DNA of 64,000 nucleotides from Rhodococcus sp. HM1 (lineage in GTDB: Bacteria > Actinomycetota > Actinomycetes > Mycobacteriales > Mycobacteriaceae), in contig NZ_JALPTB010000001.1 of assembly GCF_023218075.1 (NCBI RefSeq), positions 1 through 64,000 on the forward strand. Direction: 5' to 3'. Each line of letters starts with the position of its first letter. The first letter of the stretch is position 1. The notes beneath the pieces were generated by a model. The model did no database searches and had not been told where the DNA came from. It saw only the letters and a list, made by a program, of their open reading frames with translations. Below, one piece after another: positions 18,862 to 28,151 of this stretch. The position numbers and the translations under genes were made by a program.

Positions 18862-19560
18862 TCACTCCGGCCGGTCGTCGCCCGGGGATGGGGCGGCGTG
18901 GCGATGGGCGGCCACCAGTTCGGTGCCGGCCTCCCGGAGTGTGTCGGTCGGTTCGATGCCCAGGATGCGCAGCGCGCTGTCGGCGACGAGTCCCGCCGAC
19001 GCCGGCAGCGGGCCGTCGGCGGGGGCCGCGATCGTCGGGTCGTCCGCGCGGATCGCGATCACCGATTCGGTGACCCGCACCGGCAGGGCGCACCGCGGAT
19101 CCTTCGGGTCCGCGACGACCTGCGCTGCGAGAGTCCGGTAGATGCCGTGCAATTCGCGGCGTTTGGCGTGGAATGCGGACAGTCCCGGCGCATCCGCCTC
19201 CGGAATCAGGTACAGCCGGCCCAGATTGGACCGGTCCGTCAGTAGATTCCACGAGTCGCCCGCCGTCAGGGCCCACAGCAGCAGCGCGGGATCGCCGCCC
19301 AGCTCGGCGAGGGTGCGCGCGTACCGCAGCGACGGCTCGACCGTCGAATCGAGCAGCGCCGCGAGAATCGATTCCTTGGTGGGGAAGTGGTGGTAGAGCG
19401 ACGCCTGCCGAATTCCCACCGAGTCGGCGATCGCGCGGGTCGAGGTCGCGGCGAAACCCCGCGTGACGAACAATTCGCCTGCGGCATCGAGGATTTCCTC
19501 GCGGCCCGACGCGCCGGGGCGTCGGCTCTCCACGAGGCGCGGTCGTCCGGGTCCGGTCAC
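18862..19560 (-). CDS. TetR-family regulator at end of Fic operon
   Basis: A 232-aa TetR-type protein with helix-turn-helix TSTRAIADSVGIRQASLYHHF followed by PTKESIL. The GTG start at 19560 overlaps the stop of the upstream Fic gene (GTGA), so it is cotranscribed with the Fic and nucleotidyltransferase genes. The ligand domain has several Trp and Leu residues; the ligand is unknown. Autoregulation of the trio is an inference. Confidence 0.84.
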   Translation of the reverse strand: MTGPGRPRLVESRRPGASGREEILDAAGELFVTRGFAATSTRAIADSVGIRQASLYHHFPTKESILAALLDSTVEPSLRYARTLAELGGDPALLLWALTAGDSWNLLTDRSNLGRLYLIPEADAPGLSAFHAKRRELHGIYRTLAAQVVADPKDPRCALPVRVTESVIAIRADDPTIAAPADGPLPASAGLVADSALRILGIEPTDTLREAGTELVAAHRHAAPSPGDDRPE

Positions 19561-20336
19561 GCTGACTCACTCTGCCACATCCCGACCACTCGTTCGACGA
19601 TCGGCACGAACGGTGCGGCGGGGACCCGGTGATCGCTGTCCGCGGCGGCCATTGCCGCCCGCGAGGCATCCATCCACGCGGTGCGGTCGATGCGGCGCAG
19701 GTCGAACGGCAGCCCGGCGCGGCGGGCGAGGACGGCGAGCAGCGTCGTCGCGGTGCGGCCGTTCCCCTCCCGGAACGGATGCACCGCAACGAGATCCGCA
19801 ACGATGGCGGCTGCGGCCGAGGTGAATTCGGTGGGGCAGAGGGTGGCGGCGCCGGCCTCGAGTGCCGCCGTGCGCGCTGCGAGATGCGGAACCGGCAGGA
19901 ACCTCGCGTCGGCCTTGCGCAGGTCGACGATGCGCTGCTGCCCGGCCCACGGATAGACGTCGCCGAACAGGTGCTGGTGGATCGACGCGACGAGCGGAAC
20001 GTCCGGCACGATCGCCCCCAGGTGGATCTCGGCGATCCGCGCCGCGCACACGCGATGCTCGGCCTCCGCCAGCGCGGCCGGATTGGCGAGTCCGATTCCG
20101 TTGCGCAGCACGGATGTTCCGCGCACGTAGTAGGGGCGGTAGCGGCGCAGCAGTCGGGGTCGCTGCTCGCTCGGGTCGAGCGCGCGTGCCGCCGCGACCG
20201 CGGCGGCGATGTACTCGCCGCGCCCCAGCATCCCGGTCGCGAACGCGGTGAGGGCGGCGCGGGCGTCGTCGTCGGGTCGCCACCCTTCGAGTTCCTGCGC
20301 GTGTATCGCCTGCGCGACGGCGTACTCGGCGTTCAC
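19557..20336 (-). CDS. Fic/DOC-family AMPylase-like protein
   Basis: A 259-aa Fic-fold protein. The active-site motif HPFREGNGRT (about 183-192) matches H-x-F-x-(D/E)-G-N-G-R with catalytic His and phosphate-binding Arg, so AMP (or another NMP) transfer to a target hydroxyl is expected. LFGDVYPWAGQQR upstream of the motif is the usual Fic substrate flap. I do not see a clear inhibitory (S/T)xxxE(G/N) helix in the protein or its neighbours. The GTG start at 20336 overlaps the stop of the nucleotidyltransferase gene; its own stop overlaps the TetR gene. The tight overlap suggests one functional unit. Confidence 0.82.
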   Translation of the reverse strand: MNAEYAVAQAIHAQELEGWRPDDDARAALTAFATGMLGRGEYIAAAVAAARALDPSEQRPRLLRRYRPYYVRGTSVLRNGIGLANPAALAEAEHRVCAARIAEIHLGAIVPDVPLVASIHQHLFGDVYPWAGQQRIVDLRKADARFLPVPHLAARTAALEAGAATLCPTEFTSAAAAIVADLVAVHPFREGNGRTATTLLAVLARRAGLPFDLRRIDRTAWMDASRAAMAAADSDHRVPAAPFVPIVERVVGMWQSESA

Positions 20337-21241
20337 GGCCCGTCCGGGCGGGTGAACGACGACGCGGACAGTCGATAGTCGAGGACGCGCTGGATGCCGG
20401 CGACCGTGCGCGAGACCCACCGGATGGTGGCGCGCTCGGAGGGACGGAACCCGGTCAGGGGCTCGGGGCCGTCGATGCCGGGGCCGGAGAGGGCGCGGCG
20501 CGTGACGATGTCGAGGATCTCGTGGTGGCAGCGCTGCAGGTCGGCGATCTCGTCGACCTCGAGGTATTCGCCGGGCCGGGCCGCGGCCAGGCGCTCCCCG
20601 GTGGCGTGCCCGCCGGTCCCGCCGGCGAGTGCCGCCCAACGCGCGATCTTGCGCACGGGGGTCAGCAGATCCTGCTTGAGGTCGACGTTCGGGGCGGAGA
20701 CCAGCGGAAACGCCGGCCGCACGTGCGGCCGGTGGGCGAGCGCGTCGGACAGGACGGCGTTCAGGCAACGCGGATGGGCGCGGATCGCAGCGGCGAGCAC
20801 CTCGCTCAGATCGGGGTCGGGACGGTCACCGACCGGGCGTGCGTCGGCGAGCAGTCCGATCATGACGATGCCACGGTCCTCGAGCGGGTCCGCGGCCCAA
20901 CGGGTGATCGCGGCGCGCCATTCGTCCGGGGTGCGGCGCAGTCGTCGCTGCAGCGGGGTGGCTCCGTTCGGGTCGACGATGACCCCGGGTACGCGCAGGG
21001 CGGCGGCGTCGAAGCCGTCGTGGGGGGTCCCTGTGACGGCCAGGGCATCGAGGTCGGATCCCGGCAGTGCCTCGCCGCGGCCGAGACTGCCGGTGACCCA
21101 CACCTGGGTGTCGGTGCGCCCGTCGAGGGCGGTGCGCAGTTCGTCGACGCACAGCCGCGACCATTCGGCCGCGATGTGCTCAGACGTTGCCCCGCGGGCG
21201 AATTCGGAGCGCAGGCGCGCGTGGTCGGTGGTGGTCGGCAT
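20333..21241 (-). CDS. Nucleotidyltransferase of the DUF294/GlnD-like group
   Basis: A 302-aa protein. The motif GSLGRGEALPGSDLDALAV (about 49-67) carries the G-S-x-x-R-x-E-x-x-x-x-S-D-x-D pattern of the pol-beta-type fold in GlnD and DUF294 proteins; both metal-binding Asp residues are present. The C-terminal half (NVDLKQDLLTPVRKIARWAAL) resembles the helical substrate-binding domain of that group. The start at 21241 gives MPTTTDHARLRSEF. It is first in the Fic-TetR trio. Target and nucleotide are unknown. Confidence 0.75.
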   Translation of the reverse strand: MPTTTDHARLRSEFARGATSEHIAAEWSRLCVDELRTALDGRTDTQVWVTGSLGRGEALPGSDLDALAVTGTPHDGFDAAALRVPGVIVDPNGATPLQRRLRRTPDEWRAAITRWAADPLEDRGIVMIGLLADARPVGDRPDPDLSEVLAAAIRAHPRCLNAVLSDALAHRPHVRPAFPLVSAPNVDLKQDLLTPVRKIARWAALAGGTGGHATGERLAAARPGEYLEVDEIADLQRCHHEILDIVTRRALSGPGIDGPEPLTGFRPSERATIRWVSRTVAGIQRVLDYRLSASSFTRPDGP

Positions 21242-21336
21242 GCAGCGATAGTGACACACCGACGCCGTGTCACACGTTCGCAACACAGGTAGCCCATTCG
21301 AAACATTGCCGTCACCGCGCAGGAATGAGCGCACCT

Positions 21337-21359
21337 AAAACTGTCACCCGACAGGTTTT
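21337..21359. promoter_or_regulatory. Palindromic operator before permease-allophanate operon
   Basis: CTGTC-ACCC-GACAG is a perfect palindrome, extended by AAAA on the left and GTTTT on the right. It lies 26-48 nt before the permease start. It looks like a TetR- or GntR-type operator, or a leader hairpin. Confidence 0.5.
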
Positions 21360-21384
21360 GACGGTTGCGCGAATCGAGGACACC

Positions 21385-22920
21385 ATGGCATTGACGACGC
21401 CCGCCGCGGCGCCCCCCGAAAAAGGCGGCGACGCAGTAGATCTCGCCGAATTCGGCTACGAACAGCAGCTCCACCGCTCCCTCGGGAAGTTCGCCTCGTT
21501 CGCGGCGGGATTCTCGTTCGTCTCGATCCTCACCACGATCTTCCAGCTGTTCGGCCTGGGCTTCGGGTTCGCCGGACCGGCCTTCTTCTGGACCTGGCCC
21601 GTCGTGTTCGCCGGCCAGTTCCTCGTCGCCCTGTGCTTCGCCGAACTCGCCGCCCGCTACCCGCTCTCCGGTGCGATCTACCAGTGGTCCCGCCGCCTCG
21701 GCGGCGAGGTGCTCGGCTGGTTCGGCGGCTGGTTCATGATCCTCGCGCAGATCGTCACCGCCTCCGCCGCCGCGATCGCCCTGCAGGTCGTGCTGCCGAC
21801 CGTGTGGTCCGGCTTCCAGATCATCGGCGACGACACCTCGCTCACCTCGCCCAGCGGCGCCGCCAACGCCGTCCTGCTCGGCACCGTCCTGCTCGTCGTC
21901 ACCACCACGATCAACTGCGTCGGGGTGCGCTGGATGGCGCGGGTCAACACCATCGGCGTCATCTGCGAGATCGTCGGTGTCATCGCAGTCATCGGCGTCT
22001 TCTTCACCCACGCACAGCGCGGCCCCCAGGTCGTCTTCGACACGGGCATCCACGCAGGTCAGAGCGGCTACGGATGGGCGTGGATCGCCTCCGGCCTGAT
22101 GGCCGCCTACGTCATGGTCGGGTTCGGCTCCGCCGGCGAGCTCGCCGAGGAGACCCGCGACCCCCGCCGCGTCGCCCCGCGCACCATCCGCATGGCGCTG
22201 AGCGTGTCCGCACTCGGCGGCGGCCTCATGATCCTCGGCGCGCTCATGGCCGCACCCAGCCTCACCGACGGCCGCCTCGCCGCCGAAGGCCTGCCGTACG
22301 TGCTCGACACCGTGCTGTCCTCGCCGTGGGGCACCGTGCTGCTCGTCGACGTCGCCATCGCGATCCTCATCTGCACCCTCGCGATCCAGACCGCCGCCTC
22401 CCGCCTGATGTTCTCGATGGCCCGCGACGAACGCCTCCCGTTCTCCAAGACCCTCGCGACCGTCAACCGCCGCACCGGCACCCCCATCGCCCCGTCCATC
22501 GTCGTCGGCCTCGCCTGCGTCGCGGTGCTGCTGCTCAACGTCGGTAACTCGGCGATCTTCTCGACCCTGGCCAGCGTGTGCATCATCGCGATCTACCTCG
22601 CCTACCTGCTGGTGACCGCCCCGATGCTGTACCGGCGGCTGACCGGCGGCTGGGTCTCCGGCGACGGCGGCACCGACGCCGAGGGCCGCCCGCTGTTCTC
22701 CCTGGGCCGCTGGGGTGTGCTCGTCAACGCCCTGGCCGTGCTCTACGGGCTGGTGATGGTCGTGAACCTGTCGTGGCCGCGCGCCGAGATCTTCGACCCG
22801 GCGGGCGACACCCCGATCCTGCGCTGGGCCGGACCGATCTCCATCGTCGCGATCGTCGCCCTCGGCATCCTGTGCTTCCCCCGCGGCCGGACCCACCCGC
22901 GCCCCGTCCGCTCGCTCTGA
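21385..22920 (+). CDS. APC-family permease linked to urea/guanidine utilisation
   Basis: A 511-aa integral membrane transporter of the amino acid-polyamine-organocation superfamily. About 12 hydrophobic segments are visible, and the second helix area carries ELAARYPLSGAIYQWSRRLGG, typical of the GABA/choline permease branch. The ATG at 21385 follows GAGGA. It is first of five genes in one direction with the DUF1989 and allophanate genes, so the cargo is probably a small guanidino or urea-like compound; this is inferred from context. Confidence 0.85.
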   Translation: MALTTPAAAPPEKGGDAVDLAEFGYEQQLHRSLGKFASFAAGFSFVSILTTIFQLFGLGFGFAGPAFFWTWPVVFAGQFLVALCFAELAARYPLSGAIYQWSRRLGGEVLGWFGGWFMILAQIVTASAAAIALQVVLPTVWSGFQIIGDDTSLTSPSGAANAVLLGTVLLVVTTTINCVGVRWMARVNTIGVICEIVGVIAVIGVFFTHAQRGPQVVFDTGIHAGQSGYGWAWIASGLMAAYVMVGFGSAGELAEETRDPRRVAPRTIRMALSVSALGGGLMILGALMAAPSLTDGRLAAEGLPYVLDTVLSSPWGTVLLVDVAIAILICTLAIQTAASRLMFSMARDERLPFSKTLATVNRRTGTPIAPSIVVGLACVAVLLLNVGNSAIFSTLASVCIIAIYLAYLLVTAPMLYRRLTGGWVSGDGGTDAEGRPLFSLGRWGVLVNALAVLYGLVMVVNLSWPRAEIFDPAGDTPILRWAGPISIVAIVALGILCFPRGRTHPRPVRSL

Positions 22921-22945: not shown

Positions 22946-23794
22946 ATGACCGCCACCACCACCGCAGCCCGCGACCACGCCCGCTCCCAGGCCGGGCAGC
23001 ACGACGGCCCCATGCCCGTCGTCCCCGCCTCCGCCTGGCCGAACCCGCCCGCCGGAGTCGACGCCGACGCACTGGTGTGGGCCGAGACCGTGCCCGGCGG
23101 CCGCTACACCTCCAAGGTGCTCGCCCGCGGCACCCGGCTGCGACTGACCGACCTCGACGGCCGCGGCTGCGCCCACCTGATGCTCTGGCGCGCCGACGCC
23201 CCCTGGGAGCGGCTCAACGTCGCTGACACCGTCAAGGTGCCGTGGCAGGCGTACCTCGGCGTCGACCACCCCCTCCTCGACGACCAGGGCCGCGTCCTCG
23301 CGACGATCGTCGCCGACACCTCCGGCCGGCACGACGCGCTGTGCGGCACCACCACCGCCGCCGCCAACACCGCCCGCTACGGCGACGGCTCGGTGCACTC
23401 CGGCTCCCCGGCCGGACGGGAACTGCTCACCCTCGCCGCCCTCAAGCACGGCCTCGGTCCCCGCGACGTCGCCCCGACCGTCTCGTTCTTCCACGGGGTG
23501 CGGGCCGACGAGGACGGCACCCTGGTTCCCACCGGCAACGCCGGACCGGGTGCGAGTGTCGAACTGCTGCTGCACCTTCCGCTGATCGTCGCGGTCGCGA
23601 ACACCGCACACCCCCTCGACGAATCGCCCACCTTCGACACCACCACGATCGAACTGCTCGCCTGGCGCGCGCCCGCCGACCTCGCCGCGCTCGCCGCCCG
23701 CGCCGCCGAGATCGGGCCCGAATACGACCGCGCGCACCGCAACACCGAAGACGTCCACGCCGCCGCCCTGCCGACCGAAGGGAACCTCGCATGA
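22946..23794 (+). CDS. DUF1989 protein, urea-carboxylase-associated type 1
   Basis: A 282-aa DUF1989 protein, the UAAP1 type found next to urea/guanidine carboxylases. Family features: an N-terminal ~50-residue extension, ETVPGGRYTSKVLARGTRLRLTDLDGRGC, conserved Cys residues (GCAHL, LCGTTT), and SFFHGVR. In other bacteria a pair of DUF1989 proteins (CgdA/CgdB) is the carboxyguanidine deiminase that makes allophanate, so the same role is likely here. It lies 25 nt after the permease and overlaps the next gene by ATGA. Confidence 0.85.
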   Translation: MTATTTAARDHARSQAGQHDGPMPVVPASAWPNPPAGVDADALVWAETVPGGRYTSKVLARGTRLRLTDLDGRGCAHLMLWRADAPWERLNVADTVKVPWQAYLGVDHPLLDDQGRVLATIVADTSGRHDALCGTTTAAANTARYGDGSVHSGSPAGRELLTLAALKHGLGPRDVAPTVSFFHGVRADEDGTLVPTGNAGPGASVELLLHLPLIVAVANTAHPLDESPTFDTTTIELLAWRAPADLAALAARAAEIGPEYDRAHRNTEDVHAAALPTEGNLA

Positions 23795-24438
23795 CCGCCA
23801 CCACCGCCCTCGCCCCCCTCGTCCCCGGCACCGTGATCCTCGACGAGACGGTCGCGCCCCGCGGCCCGTGGTCGGCGATCGTCGCCGCCGGTGACGTGCT
23901 CACCATCGTCGACCTGTACGGCAACCAGGCCGTCGACACCCTGTTCTACGGCGCCGCGGACACCACGATCCGCTACAGCGCACAGGCCACCATCACCGCG
24001 CAGCGCTCGCTGTTCCTGACCACCGGATCGGTGATCCGCGACCAGGAGGGCAACCCGATGATGACGATCGTTGCCGACGAGGTCGGCAACCACGACACCA
24101 TCGGCGGGGCCTGCTCGCAGGAATCGAACACCCTGCGCTACGGCCACCACACCCGCCACCAGCACGCGTGCGTCGAGAACTTCCTCGCCGAGGGCGCGAA
24201 ATACGGCCTGGGCAAACGGGATCTGGTCGGCAACGTCAACTTCTTCATGAACGTGCCGGTCGACCCGGACGGCACCCTCGGCATCGTCGACGGACTGTCC
24301 GCACCCGGTCGCCGGCTCGCGCTGCGCGCCGAGATCGACACGCTCGTGCTCGTGTCCAACTGCCCGCAGATCAACAACCCCTGCAACGGATTCGACCCCA
24401 CCGCCGTGCAGATGATCGTCACCCGACCGGAGGCCTGA
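23791..24438 (+). CDS. DUF1989 protein, urea-carboxylase-associated type 2
   Basis: A 215-aa partner of the previous gene, UAAP2 type. DLYGNQAVDTLFYGA, GGACSQESNTLRYG, H-x-x-C (HQHACVENF), NVNFFMNVPV and NCPQINNPCNGFDPT are the family signatures, with conserved Cys and His suited to metal binding or catalysis. Shorter than type 1, as expected. The two overlapping genes probably encode the two subunits of one deiminase acting on carboxyguanidine; this assignment rests on family knowledge. Confidence 0.85.
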   Translation: MTATTALAPLVPGTVILDETVAPRGPWSAIVAAGDVLTIVDLYGNQAVDTLFYGAADTTIRYSAQATITAQRSLFLTTGSVIRDQEGNPMMTIVADEVGNHDTIGGACSQESNTLRYGHHTRHQHACVENFLAEGAKYGLGKRDLVGNVNFFMNVPVDPDGTLGIVDGLSAPGRRLALRAEIDTLVLVSNCPQINNPCNGFDPTAVQMIVTRPEA

Positions 24439-24441
24439 CCC

Positions 24442-26448
24442 ATGAGCGTGACCTGCACCGTCCTGCGTCCCGGACCGCTCACCACCGTCCAGGACTGGCC
24501 CGGACGCGTCGGCTACTGGAAGATCGGCGTCCCGCCGTCCGGCCCGATGGACGACCTGTCGTTCCGGCTAGCGAACCTCGCGGTCGGCAACGCCGAGGGC
24601 ACCGCCGGACTCGAGGCCACCATGGCCGGCCCGCGCCTGCGCTTCGACGCCGAGACCACGGTCGCGGTCACCGGCGCGGCCGCCACGGTCACCGTCGACG
24701 GCCGTCCCGTCCCGCAGTGGACACCGGTCACCGTCCCGGCGGGCGGGGTTCTCGACGTCGGCGCCGTCACCGGTGCAGGTCTGCGCATCTACATCGCCGT
24801 CGCCGGCGGCATCGACGTCGACCCCTACCTCGGGTCCGGGGCGACGTTCACCCTCGGCAAGTTCGGCGGCGTCTCCGGGCGGGTGCTCGCCGACGGCGAC
24901 GCGCTGCCGCTCGGCACGTCCACCGGAACGCCGCGGCGCCTCACCGCCGAGGAGATCCCCGCGATCGGCCACGACTGGACCATCGCGGTCACCGAGGGGC
25001 CGCACGGCGCGCCGGAGTTCTTCACCCGCAAGGACATCGACACCCTCTACGGCACCGCGTACACCGTGCACCACAACTCCGACCGCACCGGCGTCCGCCT
25101 CATCGGACCCAAGCCGACCTGGGCGCGACCCGACGGCGGGGAAGCGGGCCTGCACCCGTCGAACATCCACGACACCCCCTACACGGTCGGTGCCCTCGAC
25201 TTCACCGGCGACACCCCGATCCTGCTCGGCCCCGACGGACCGAGCCTCGGCGGCTTCGTCTGTCCGGTCACCGTCGTCACCGCCGACCGCTGGAAGATGG
25301 GGCAGCTCGCCCCCGGCGACCGGTTGCGCTTCGTCCCGGTGCGCGCCGCGAACGTCGCCTCGCCCAAGGTGTTCGGGCCCGCCCGCCGTGCGGCGGTGCC
25401 CGTCGTCGGCGGTATCGGCGACGGCGACGACGGTGTGCTGCACCGCGGCGCGACCGCGGACGGCACCACCTCGGTGACGGTGCGGCGCAGCGGCGACGAC
25501 AACATCCTCGTCGAGTACGGCACCATGTCGCTGGACCTGGTGCTGCGTGCCCGCGTGCACGCGCTGCAGACCGCCCTCGAGCAGGCCGGGCTGCGCGGCC
25601 TCGTCGATCTGACCCCCGGAATCCGTTCCCTGCAAGTGAAATTCGATCCGACGGTGACGAACACCCGCTCGGTGCTCGGTGCCGTGCTCGAGACGGAGGC
25701 GGCGCTGCCCGCCGCGGACCGGCTCGTCGTCCCCAGTCGCACCGTGCGGCTGCCGCTGAGCTGGGACGACCCGTCCACGCGACTGGCCACCGAACGCTAC
25801 ATGCACGGTGTGCGCGCCGATGCCCCGTGGTGCCCGTGGAACATCGAGTTCATCCGCCGCATGAACGGCCTGGATTCGGTCGACGACGTGTACAAGACCG
25901 TGTACGACGCGTCCTACCTCGTGCTCGGTCTCGGCGACGTGTATCTCGGTGCGCCCGTGGCGACCCCGCTCGATCCACGGCACCGGCTCGTCACCACCAA
26001 ATACAACCCGGCCCGCACCTGGACCCCGGAGAACGCGGTCGGCATCGGCGGCGCCTACCTGTGCATCTACGGGATGGAAGGCCCCGGCGGCTACCAGTTC
26101 GTGGGCCGCACCACCCAGGTGTGGAACCACCGCTTCCCGGAGGGCGCAGGCGGATTCGAACCCGAACACCCGTGGCTGCTGCGGTTCTTCGACCGCATCT
26201 CCTGGTACCCGGTCTCCGCCGAGGAACTGCTCGACCTGCGCGCCGACACCGCCGCCGGACGCGGTCACGTCGACATCACCGAGGGCGAATTCTCCCTCGC
26301 CGAGCACCTCGCGTTCCTCAAGCGCGAAGCCGATTCGATCGGTGCGGTTCGCGCGACAATGGAAGCGGCCCGCGACGAGGAACGCGCCCGCTGGGAAGCC
26401 GACGGCGAACTCTCCCGCGGCACCCGACTCGGAAAGGCGGCAGCATGA
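24442..26448 (+). CDS. Stand-alone carboxyltransferase part of urea/guanidine carboxylase
   Basis: A 668-aa protein equal to the middle of urea/guanidine carboxylase: an AHS2/KipA-like domain (about 1-305, starting VLRPGPLTTVQDWPGRVGYW and VPPSGPMDDLSFRLAN) then an AHS1/KipI-like domain (about 325-560, with VEYGTMSLDLVLRARVHAL and GLVDLTPGIRSLQVKFDP) and a charged helical tail. The biotin carboxylase domain (~450 aa) and the C-terminal biotin-carrier domain with its lysine motif are absent; the frame starts cleanly 3 nt after the previous stop. Carboxybiotin would have to come from another protein, or the enzyme has a different activity. Confidence 0.85.
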   Translation: MSVTCTVLRPGPLTTVQDWPGRVGYWKIGVPPSGPMDDLSFRLANLAVGNAEGTAGLEATMAGPRLRFDAETTVAVTGAAATVTVDGRPVPQWTPVTVPAGGVLDVGAVTGAGLRIYIAVAGGIDVDPYLGSGATFTLGKFGGVSGRVLADGDALPLGTSTGTPRRLTAEEIPAIGHDWTIAVTEGPHGAPEFFTRKDIDTLYGTAYTVHHNSDRTGVRLIGPKPTWARPDGGEAGLHPSNIHDTPYTVGALDFTGDTPILLGPDGPSLGGFVCPVTVVTADRWKMGQLAPGDRLRFVPVRAANVASPKVFGPARRAAVPVVGGIGDGDDGVLHRGATADGTTSVTVRRSGDDNILVEYGTMSLDLVLRARVHALQTALEQAGLRGLVDLTPGIRSLQVKFDPTVTNTRSVLGAVLETEAALPAADRLVVPSRTVRLPLSWDDPSTRLATERYMHGVRADAPWCPWNIEFIRRMNGLDSVDDVYKTVYDASYLVLGLGDVYLGAPVATPLDPRHRLVTTKYNPARTWTPENAVGIGGAYLCIYGMEGPGGYQFVGRTTQVWNHRFPEGAGGFEPEHPWLLRFFDRISWYPVSAEELLDLRADTAAGRGHVDITEGEFSLAEHLAFLKREADSIGAVRATMEAARDEERARWEADGELSRGTRLGKAAA

Positions 26449-28151
26449 CCGACCGTGTGACACAGGCCTACGCGCGACTGCGCGAGGCGGATCGCCCCGA
26501 GGTGTTCGTGCACCTGCGCGACGAAGCCGACGTCGCCGCCGAATACGCCGAATCGTTGCGTCGCGGTGGGGAACTCGCGGGCGTCCTGCTGGCCGTGAAG
26601 GACAACGTCGACGTCGCGGGGCTGCCCACGACCGCCGCCTGCCCCGGCTACAGCTACGTCCCCGACGCCGATGCCGCCGCGGTCGCGGCACTGCGGGCGG
26701 CAGGCGCCGTCGTGGTCGGCAAGACCAACCTGGACCAGTTCGCGACCGGGCTCGTGGGAACCCGCAGCCCGTACGGCGCGGTCCGTGACGCGCGGCGGCC
26801 CGAGTACGTGTCCGGCGGGTCGTCGTCCGGGTCCGCGGTCGCGGTGGCGCTCGGGATCGTGGACATCGCGATCGGCACCGACACCGCCGGTTCCGGCCGG
26901 GTCCCGGCCGCGTTCCAGGGGATCGTCGGGATCAAACCGACGGTCGGGACGGTCGCGACCACGGGGGTGGTGCCGGCCTGCGCCGAGTACGACTGCGTGA
27001 CGATCTTCGCCCGCGACCTTCCGTCCGCCGAACGCGCGGTCGCGATCATGGCGACTGCCCCCGGCGGCCGGTCGTGGCCGGCGGACGTGCCGCTGGCCGC
27101 GGCGCCCGGTGCCGCGCTCGCGGTGCCCCGCGATCTTCCGGAACTCGACGAACGGTGGCGCGCCGCGTTCGCCGCAGCCGTCGAGCAGGCACGAGCGGCC
27201 GGGTTCACGATCGTCGAGATCGACCTCGACGACTTCCTCGCCGCAGCCCGGCTGCTGTACGACGGGGCGCTCGTCGCGCAGCGGTGGGATGCGGTCGGTG
27301 AGTTCGTCGAGGCCGCCGATTACGGCGACCAGGAGACGGGGCTCGATCCGGTGGTCGCCGGGATCGTGCGGGGTGCGGCCCGGTTCTCCGCCGTCGACCT
27401 GCTGCGTGACCGCGCGAAACTCGCCGCGCTGCGAGACCGGGCGATGACCGTGTGGGGTGACTGCGCGGCGCTGCTGGTGCCGACCGCGCCGTTCCACCCG
27501 ACGATCGCCGAGGTTGCGGCGGACCCGGTCGGGGTCAACTCGCGGCTGGGGACCTACACGAACTTCTGCAATCTGTTCGACCTGTGCGGGGTCGCGGTCC
27601 CGGCCGGTGAGGTCGTCGAAAGCGACGGCAGCACAGCACAGTTCGGCGTGACGGTGCTCGCGCCGGCCGGGCACGACGCGGTCGCGGCCGACGTGGCGGC
27701 ACGCCTGACCGGGACGCCGCGCGACCCGTCATCGCCGTCGTGGCCGGAACAGGCCGGGGCGCAGGCGTTTCCGTTGATCGTGTTCGGTGCGCACCTGCAC
27801 GACCAGCCGCTCGCCGGTCAGCTCACCGCGCTCGGTGCCCGCTGGGCCGGACCGGTCTCGACGGCACCGGAGTACCGGATGACCGCGTTGCCCACGCAGC
27901 CGCCGAAGCCTGCGGTGGTGCGCTGCGCCGACGGCGGGGCGTCGCTGGAAGGGGAGCGGTGGGTGTGCTCACCCGCGGCGCTCGGCCGCTTCCTGGCGGC
28001 GCTGCCCGCCCCGATGGGGCTCGGGTCGGTGCAGCTGGCCGACGGCACGTGGGAGACCGGGTTCGTCTGCGGCGACGACGCCGCGTCCGCGGCTCCCGAC
28101 ATCACCGCCGCTGGGTCCTGGCGCACCCACCTCGCCGCGGCCCTCGTGTAG
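26445..28151 (+). CDS. atzF: Allophanate hydrolase
   Basis: A 568-aa amidase-signature enzyme that splits allophanate to ammonia and CO2. The catalytic Lys lies in VLLAVKDNVDVAG (about 52), the Ser pair in GGSSSGSAVAVALG and the nucleophile in TDTAGSGRVPA. The C-terminal domain (FPLIVFGAHLHDQPLAGQL onward) matches the second, decarboxylating domain of AtzF-type hydrolases. The ATG overlaps the upstream stop (ATGA). It completes the operon: transport, carboxylation, deimination, hydrolysis. Confidence 0.93.
   Translation: MTDRVTQAYARLREADRPEVFVHLRDEADVAAEYAESLRRGGELAGVLLAVKDNVDVAGLPTTAACPGYSYVPDADAAAVAALRAAGAVVVGKTNLDQFATGLVGTRSPYGAVRDARRPEYVSGGSSSGSAVAVALGIVDIAIGTDTAGSGRVPAAFQGIVGIKPTVGTVATTGVVPACAEYDCVTIFARDLPSAERAVAIMATAPGGRSWPADVPLAAAPGAALAVPRDLPELDERWRAAFAAAVEQARAAGFTIVEIDLDDFLAAARLLYDGALVAQRWDAVGEFVEAADYGDQETGLDPVVAGIVRGAARFSAVDLLRDRAKLAALRDRAMTVWGDCAALLVPTAPFHPTIAEVAADPVGVNSRLGTYTNFCNLFDLCGVAVPAGEVVESDGSTAQFGVTVLAPAGHDAVAADVAARLTGTPRDPSSPSWPEQAGAQAFPLIVFGAHLHDQPLAGQLTALGARWAGPVSTAPEYRMTALPTQPPKPAVVRCADGGASLEGERWVCSPAALGRFLAALPAPMGLGSVQLADGTWETGFVCGDDAASAAPDITAAGSWRTHLAAALV

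Follow-up and report, generated by a model that had tools for sequence, protein, structure and literature searches.

Published work describes guanidine carboxylases as enzymes that contain biotin (PMC11410670), and a 2011 study asked whether carboxyltransferase (CT) domains of such a type are served by other biotin carboxylases (BCs) or have a different role (PMC3199775). The question is raised anew by a stretch of 64,000 nt from Rhodococcus sp. HM1 (NZ_JALPTB010000001.1, positions 1 to 64,000; hereafter the window), in which a predicted guanidine operon contains a CT gene that encodes neither a BC domain nor a biotin carrier (BCCP) domain. Is this a truncated gene, a biotin-free enzyme, or a guanidine carboxylase that receives its carboxybiotin from another protein?

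A carboxyltransferase without biotin domains

The only Pfam matches in the 668-aa product of the CT gene are CT_A_B and CT_C_D, in that order (Table 1). There was no Pfam match to Carboxyl_trans (PF01039), the acyl-CoA carboxylase beta family; searches with Pfam and TIGR02712 detected no BC domain in the chain, and Pfam detected no BCCP domain with a biotinyl lysine. Against TIGR02712, the model of the full urea carboxylase (an enzyme of ~1200 aa), the protein covers positions 448-1113 of 1201 and scores 961.9 bits, under the cut-off of 1303.9. Both missing stretches, 1-447 (BC) and 1114-1201 (BCCP), therefore end at domain borders, and the C-terminus of the chain falls where the linker to BCCP starts in full-length relatives. 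The score against the PxpC equivalog model was 132.7 bits, compared with a cut-off of 500.

The neighboring genes lie very close to these borders: UAAP2 stops at 24438, 3 bases 5' of the CT gene, and allophanate hydrolase starts at 26445, overlapping the CT 3' end. Such tight flanking genes leave no space for hidden biotin domains and give no sign of a frameshift. A frameshift or assembly artefact as the cause of the CT-only state is ruled out by these borders together with 79 named loci of the same kind (see below). A preliminary description of this DNA had claimed that the gene encodes AHS2 and AHS1 domains only, with the biotin domains absent, and Pfam, TIGR02712 and the gene borders all confirm this. 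Judging from its sequence, the protein most likely acts like the last half of a guanidine carboxylase, although it lacks two defining features of that enzyme, BC and BCCP.

Table 1. Features of the predicted guanidine operon and its surroundings in the window
Feature	Position	Strand	Basis or remark
AmtR-type TetR repressor gene, probable operon regulator	18862..19560	-	TetR_N
Candidate GlnR site GTCACACGTTCGCAAC	21269..21284	+	consensus match only
Palindrome CTGTCACCCGACAG, probable AmtR operator	21341..21354	+	motif CTRTCN4GAYAG
APC-type permease, urea carboxylase system	21379..22920	+	TIGR03428, 881.8 bits, cut-off 740
UAAP1, DUF1989, carboxyguanidine deiminase subunit	22946..23794	+	TIGR03425, 287 bits, cut-off 206
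UAAP2, DUF1989, carboxyguanidine deiminase subunit	23791..24438	+	TIGR03424, 330 bits, cut-off 285
CT-only guanidine carboxylase subunit (predicted), 668 aa, without BC and BCCP	24442..26448	+	
CT_A_B (AHS2) domain	24523..25338	+	PF02626, residues 28-299, E 4e-94
Asp253, guanidine-type specificity residue (K. lactis Asn1330; TIGR02712 position 701)	25198..25200	+	alignment
CT_C_D (AHS1) domain	25477..26130	+	PF02682, residues 346-563, E 1e-39
Asp499, required active-site residue (K. lactis Asp1584; TIGR02712 position 956)	25936..25938	+	alignment
Lys520, likely general base of carboxyl transfer (K. lactis Lys1605)	25999..26001	+	alignment
Allophanate hydrolase	26445..28151	+	TIGR02713, 633 bits, cut-off 511

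The operon and its probable regulation

The CT gene belongs to an intact operon, permease-UAAP1-UAAP2-CT-allophanate hydrolase, located beside an AmtR-type repressor gene. Its four partners all score above the cut-offs of their TIGRFAM models, which bears out the earlier statement that two DUF1989 proteins, a permease and allophanate hydrolase share a tight operon with the CT gene. Between the AmtR-type gene and the operon sits a gene for a Fic-domain protein (19557-20768, minus strand) with a VbhA-antitoxin-like stretch before the Fic domain in the same reading frame; it is followed by a nucleotidyltransferase-like gene.

The TetR protein finds its best solved relatives in the AmtR structures 5mqq, 6gy3 and 5e57 (E 2e-46 to 3e-42), with further matches to the AmtR structures 5dy0, 5dy1 and 5dxz, and a TetR match was present in 68 of 80 related loci, mostly just upstream of the operon. 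The palindrome CTGTCACCCGACAG is the sole match to CTRTCN4GAYAG in the window, where 0.09 would be expected, and the 300 bp ahead of the first gene contain the motif in 73/80 related loci versus 0/80 control stretches. The operon thus has a conserved repressor site, a point absent from the preliminary description, and the AmtR-type gene and the conserved operator together make AmtR control of the Rhodococcus operon probable. The evidence for the candidate GlnR site GTCACACGTTCGCAAC is weak, since the three matches to the GlnR consensus in the window (1.3 expected) are not above chance alone. No Rfam match to a guanidine riboswitch was found in the window. In M. smegmatis, an operon with this gene order (msmeg_2184-2189) is AmtR-repressed, GlnR-bound and induced by nitrogen starvation (PMC4222082, PMC3662644, PMC4617892); the passages on it mention neither missing domains nor guanidine. 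Both binding of AmtR and derepression were demonstrated for the M. smegmatis operon, and neither urea nor amino acids acted as AmtR effectors there (PMC4222082). To judge from sequenced Mycolicibacterium relatives, msmeg_2187 would be CT-only.

Distribution and evolution of the CT-only state

The nearest named relatives of the window CT come from Rhodococcus zopfii (96%) and R. phenolicus (93%). When 151 genomes of the family were surveyed, 109 contained a relative at E below 1e-100. By hand count, ~86 of these 109 have CT-only frames at 65-100% identity and ~12 have full-length enzymes at 65-70% identity, while most of the remaining matches are full-length urea-type enzymes at 56-61% identity; ~65 of the 86 CT-only genomes, again by hand count, have no second match and no additional full-length enzyme. 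Among the named loci, 79 of 80 are CT-only, the exception being the full-length enzyme of Arthrobacter sp. M4. CT-only genera include Rhodococcus, Rhodococcoides, Prescottella, Gordonia, Mycobacterium/Mycolicibacterium, Tsukamurella, Williamsia, Nocardia, Dietzia, Antrihabitans and Jongsikchunia, and the CT is kept across more than 20 genera. Both UAAP1 and UAAP2 accompany it in all 80 named loci and allophanate hydrolase in most, and no BC or BCCP match occurred in the fetched flanks (up to 6 kb) of any of the 79 CT-only named loci. CT-only is the standard architecture of a large clade, which the preliminary description had not noted. One locus (L181), from a record titled Kitasatospora arboriphila NRRL B-24581, is Mycobacteriales-like in its operon and at 71% identity; the name of the record may be wrong or the record contaminated.

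In a tree of 48 CT regions, the CT-only proteins group in a single clade (support 100/99) that branches from within the full-length guanidine carboxylases, a pattern that we read as one loss of BC and BCCP. The full-length enzymes around this clade hold the same UAAP1-UAAP2 slot. Two more CT-only groups (b and c, discussed below) branch elsewhere in the CT tree, outside the main clade. Invariant columns number 273 in the CT-only clade versus 263 in the full-length enzymes, only two columns are specific to one or the other group, and the dN/dS of the window CT against its two nearest relatives is 0.09 and 0.16. These values point to a CT that, after the loss of BC and BCCP, is under purifying selection and as constrained as in the full-length enzymes.

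Active site and predicted structure

The residue rule for guanidine carboxylases calls for Asp at K. lactis position 1584, and Asp at position 1330 separates the guanidine from the urea type (PMC11410670); K. lactis Lys1605 probably acts as general base in carboxyl transfer (PMC5770610). The window protein has Asp at both positions of the rule (956 and 701 of TIGR02712). In our alignment, position 1330 is Asp in 16/16 clade members and 10/10 full-length relatives, compared with Asn in the urea-type enzyme, and the equivalents of Asp1584 and Lys1605 are invariant across the same clade and full-length rows.

The window CT aligns end to end with the CT of the K. lactis enzyme (3va7, 5i8i) at 38-39% identity. 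The K. lactis carboxyltransferase was also the best Foldseek match of the predicted structure (E 2e-58 to 2e-60), and comparison with 5i8i by VIA-align gave a Z of 39.5 and an rmsd of 3.7 over 588 residues. The prediction is of moderate confidence (mean pLDDT 71.8), with low pLDDT in the conserved loops of the active site, probably a result of the shallow alignment, and is used here for the fold only. Guanidine is likely to be the substrate of the CT-only enzyme.

Other CT-only lineages

Group b (L083, L096-L105), from genomes of the same order, is a second CT-only lineage in permease-UAAP1-UAAP2-CT-allophanate hydrolase operons. Of the 9 group b loci that have upstream sequence, 8 carry a guanidine-I riboswitch immediately upstream (L083, L096, L097, L098, L099, L100, L102 and L103); none was found upstream of L101, and L104 and L105, where the upstream sequence is cut, are outside this count. 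The group b CT has Met at position 1330 where the guanidine rule wants Asp, and its UAAP1 is only ~30% identical. The presence of Met in riboswitch-bearing loci indicates that the Asp rule is not absolute; in group b, either the residue rule or the substrate differs. Group c (L106 and L107, from distant Actinobacteria) is a third CT-only pair; its specificity residue is Ile, and no match to a guanidine riboswitch was found. The riboswitch operons of group b, taken with the main clade, indicate that BC-less guanidine operons occur more than once. A CT-like outlier (L108, 8404-10368) has Glu for Asp1584 and Arg for Lys1605; its genome (G517) yielded no BC with the BC profile and a partial BC-like frame with AccA3 as query.

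Possible sources of carboxybiotin

Our inventory of BCs rests on profile searches. A C-terminal profile detected seven BCs in the HM1 genome, all seven of which were also found, along with others, by CPSase_L_D2. The BCs of this genome include AccA3, an MCC-type enzyme, pyruvate carboxylase, a 1855-aa single-chain enzyme and a split BC/BCCP (C55). Compact CT-only genomes, by the same kind of search, have only 2-3 BCs: G018, G139 and G016 each have three, of which one is AccA3 and the other two come with a beta subunit of their own, and G037 has pyruvate carboxylase, AccA3 and one BC with its own beta. Since all of these are AccA3 or are paired with their own carboxyltransferase, none remains as an orphan that could be a dedicated partner. 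Likewise in group b, the searches of G177 and G370 yielded only an AccA3 orthologue plus a BC paired with its own beta. In the complete group b genome G197, the BC profile detected no AccA3-like enzyme, and the BCs found were a single-chain long-chain enzyme and an unassigned 526-aa BC. The gene at L165 2803-4167 of G197 encodes a BC without a BCCP match, a possible stand-alone BC.

AccA3 serves several carboxyltransferases (PMC4347857) and was found in 147/151 family genomes; in G145 it looked absent only because it is cut at contig ends. In the CT-only genome G007 (one contig, 99% complete) no AccA3 was found; the only BCs detected there were pyruvate carboxylase and an alpha subunit of C221 type that has its own beta. 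AccA3 therefore cannot be the donor everywhere, and the case for it as a universal donor is weakened.

A link between AccA3 and carboxyltransferases of this fold is suggested by PDB 9yx5, which the window CT matched in both sequence and fold searches. By its title, the entry is the M. smegmatis long-chain acyl-CoA carboxylase complex with MSMEG_0435-MSMEG_0436 bound, and it also contains AccA3, AccD5 and AccD4. MSMEG_0435-0436 are distant BC-less, 5-oxoprolinase-type homologues of the two CT halves. Together with the BCs of the compact genomes, these homologues support the earlier proposal that carboxybiotin could come from an acyl-CoA carboxylase alpha subunit; dedicated biotin domains elsewhere, named at the time as evidence that would speak against it, were searched for by profile and none was found. 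We consider it quite likely that carboxybiotin is supplied to the CT-only enzyme in trans, and would put the chance that AccA3 is its main donor slightly above even.

The HM1 genome contains two other biotin-related loci. At C55 (L027, 5562-10765), a kinase-like gene, a BCCP, a BC and a PYC_OADA-type carboxyltransferase lie in a row, a cluster that is like the Hpe acetovanillone pathway in components but different in gene order. At C181 (L034, 7501-7716), a lone 71-aa biotin carrier resembles mycobacterial TB7.3 and adjoins an ECF sigma factor and a small anti-sigma-like gene.

Proposed mechanism and alternatives

On balance, it is rather likely that the window encodes a CT-only guanidine carboxylase whose carboxybiotin is provided in trans by an alpha subunit, probably AccA3, that it shares with acyl-CoA carboxylases. 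Counting against this reading are the AccA3-less G007, the BCs of G197, the remoteness of MSMEG_0435-0436 from the window CT, the lack of a riboswitch match in the window and the Met of the riboswitch-bearing group b. The ancestral guanidine carboxylase would have been one BC-CT-BCCP chain, from which BC and BCCP would have been lost once, in the ancestor of the actinobacterial clade, with the CT active site kept. BC and BCCP would be supplied by a separate, shared alpha subunit, most likely AccA3 and in some species another alpha, which would bring carboxybiotin to the CT in trans. The CT would then pass the carboxyl group to guanidine, UAAP1/UAAP2 would deiminate carboxyguanidine to allophanate, and allophanate hydrolase would free ammonia and CO2. 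In the Rhodococcus strain, the operon would be switched on in nitrogen starvation via AmtR, and probably GlnR too. More tentatively, the CT may dock on the acyl-CoA carboxylase complex that contains AccA3, as MSMEG_0435-0436 appears to, and nitrogen starvation may divert carboxybiotin from the precursors of fatty and mycolic acids to guanidine breakdown; we regard this as possible, if somewhat doubtful.

The donor could instead be a C221-type alpha (AccA1/AccA2-like), or any alpha, rather than mainly AccA3. This type is present in 128/151 genomes, including the AccA3-less G007, but it is absent at threshold in CT-only G068, G084 and G117, all of which have AccA3, and it adjoins its own beta subunit in the compact genomes examined. 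We hold this version to be fairly unlikely. Far less probable is a dedicated but unlinked BC/BCCP pair. Although a profile search could overlook a BC gene, and the HM1 genome itself holds the split BC and BCCP of C55 and the lone carrier of C181, the first is ruled out as a dedicated partner by the Hpe-like company of its own PYC_OADA-type carboxyltransferase and kinase-like gene, and the second is ruled out as an obligate carrier by its absence from CT-only G007, G037, G030, G053 and G086; the BCs of the compact genomes, all AccA3 or paired, also argue against such a pair.

Alternatively, the CT might work without biotin, as a PxpBC-like enzyme (or a kinase) in which ATP activates guanidine or bicarbonate. 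A fold family shared with PxpB/PxpC and MSMEG_0435-0436 is consistent with this, as is the finding that neither the operon nor its flanks hold a biotin gene. However, Lys1605 and Asp1584 are kept in the CT-only enzyme, whereas in the PxpB-type MSMEG_0436 and PH0987 the Lys aligns with Arg (two relatives only, and so a lead rather than a family rule); the CT columns are barely altered since the domain loss; there is no PxpA (LamB/YcsF)-type gene among the genes of the window operon; and the sole Arg/Glu outlier, L108, comes from a genome without BC by profile. We regard biotin-free catalysis as distinctly improbable, and the earlier suggestion that the protein works like 5-oxoprolinase relatives is disfavored by the retained biotin-type residues and by the finding of only two group-specific columns. 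It is similarly improbable, by a slightly smaller margin of doubt, that the CT has another substrate or is a degenerate remnant. Its activity is predicted from sequence, and one residue can switch substrate in the CT family (PMC12186494, PMC11410670), but purifying selection, retention in more than 20 genera and the guanidine-type Asp argue for a working guanidine enzyme, as do the intact partners of CgdA/CgdB type, the presence of allophanate hydrolase at most loci and the nitrogen regulation of the M. smegmatis operon.

Implications and comparison with known systems

A well-studied bacterial clade thus appears to run a predicted guanidine pathway with only the last catalytic piece of the enzyme, encoded by a gene long annotated as urea amidolyase. 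Screens that require a full-length enzyme would overlook guanidine use in CT-only bacteria. Were AccA3 the donor, it would act in nitrogen scavenging as well as in fatty- and mycolic-acid synthesis, coupling the two, and would gain among its clients a carboxyltransferase fold unrelated to its usual partners; if docking on the AccA3 complex is true, a single BC would supply carboxyltransferases whose two folds are unrelated. Two or more separate guanidine lineages would then have evolved or retained this arrangement. The operon makes the 2011 question on CT domains and other BCs directly testable (PMC3199775).

Among known systems, guanidine/urea carboxylase (TIGR02712; 3va7, 5i8i) shares with the window enzyme the whole CT, the guanidine-type Asp, the catalytic Lys and Asp and the operon partners, but the window enzyme has no BC or BCCP, and its carboxybiotin must come from elsewhere. 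The 5-oxoprolinase proteins PxpB/PxpC and MSMEG_0435-0436 resemble it in having CT_A_B and CT_C_D folds without biotin domains of their own, and MSMEG_0435-0436 share one complex with AccA3 (9yx5). These proteins differ from it in being two separate chains with other gene partners, in having Arg for the catalytic Lys in the two relatives compared, and in their far lower similarity. AccA3 with AccD4, AccD5 and AccD6 provides a precedent for a carboxyltransferase without BC and BCCP that is served by a shared BC-BCCP alpha subunit (PMC4347857, PMC13118682). The acyl-CoA carboxylase beta subunits differ in their unrelated carboxyltransferase fold and acyl-CoA substrate, while the window CT would enter a similar partnership with the fold of a guanidine carboxylase.
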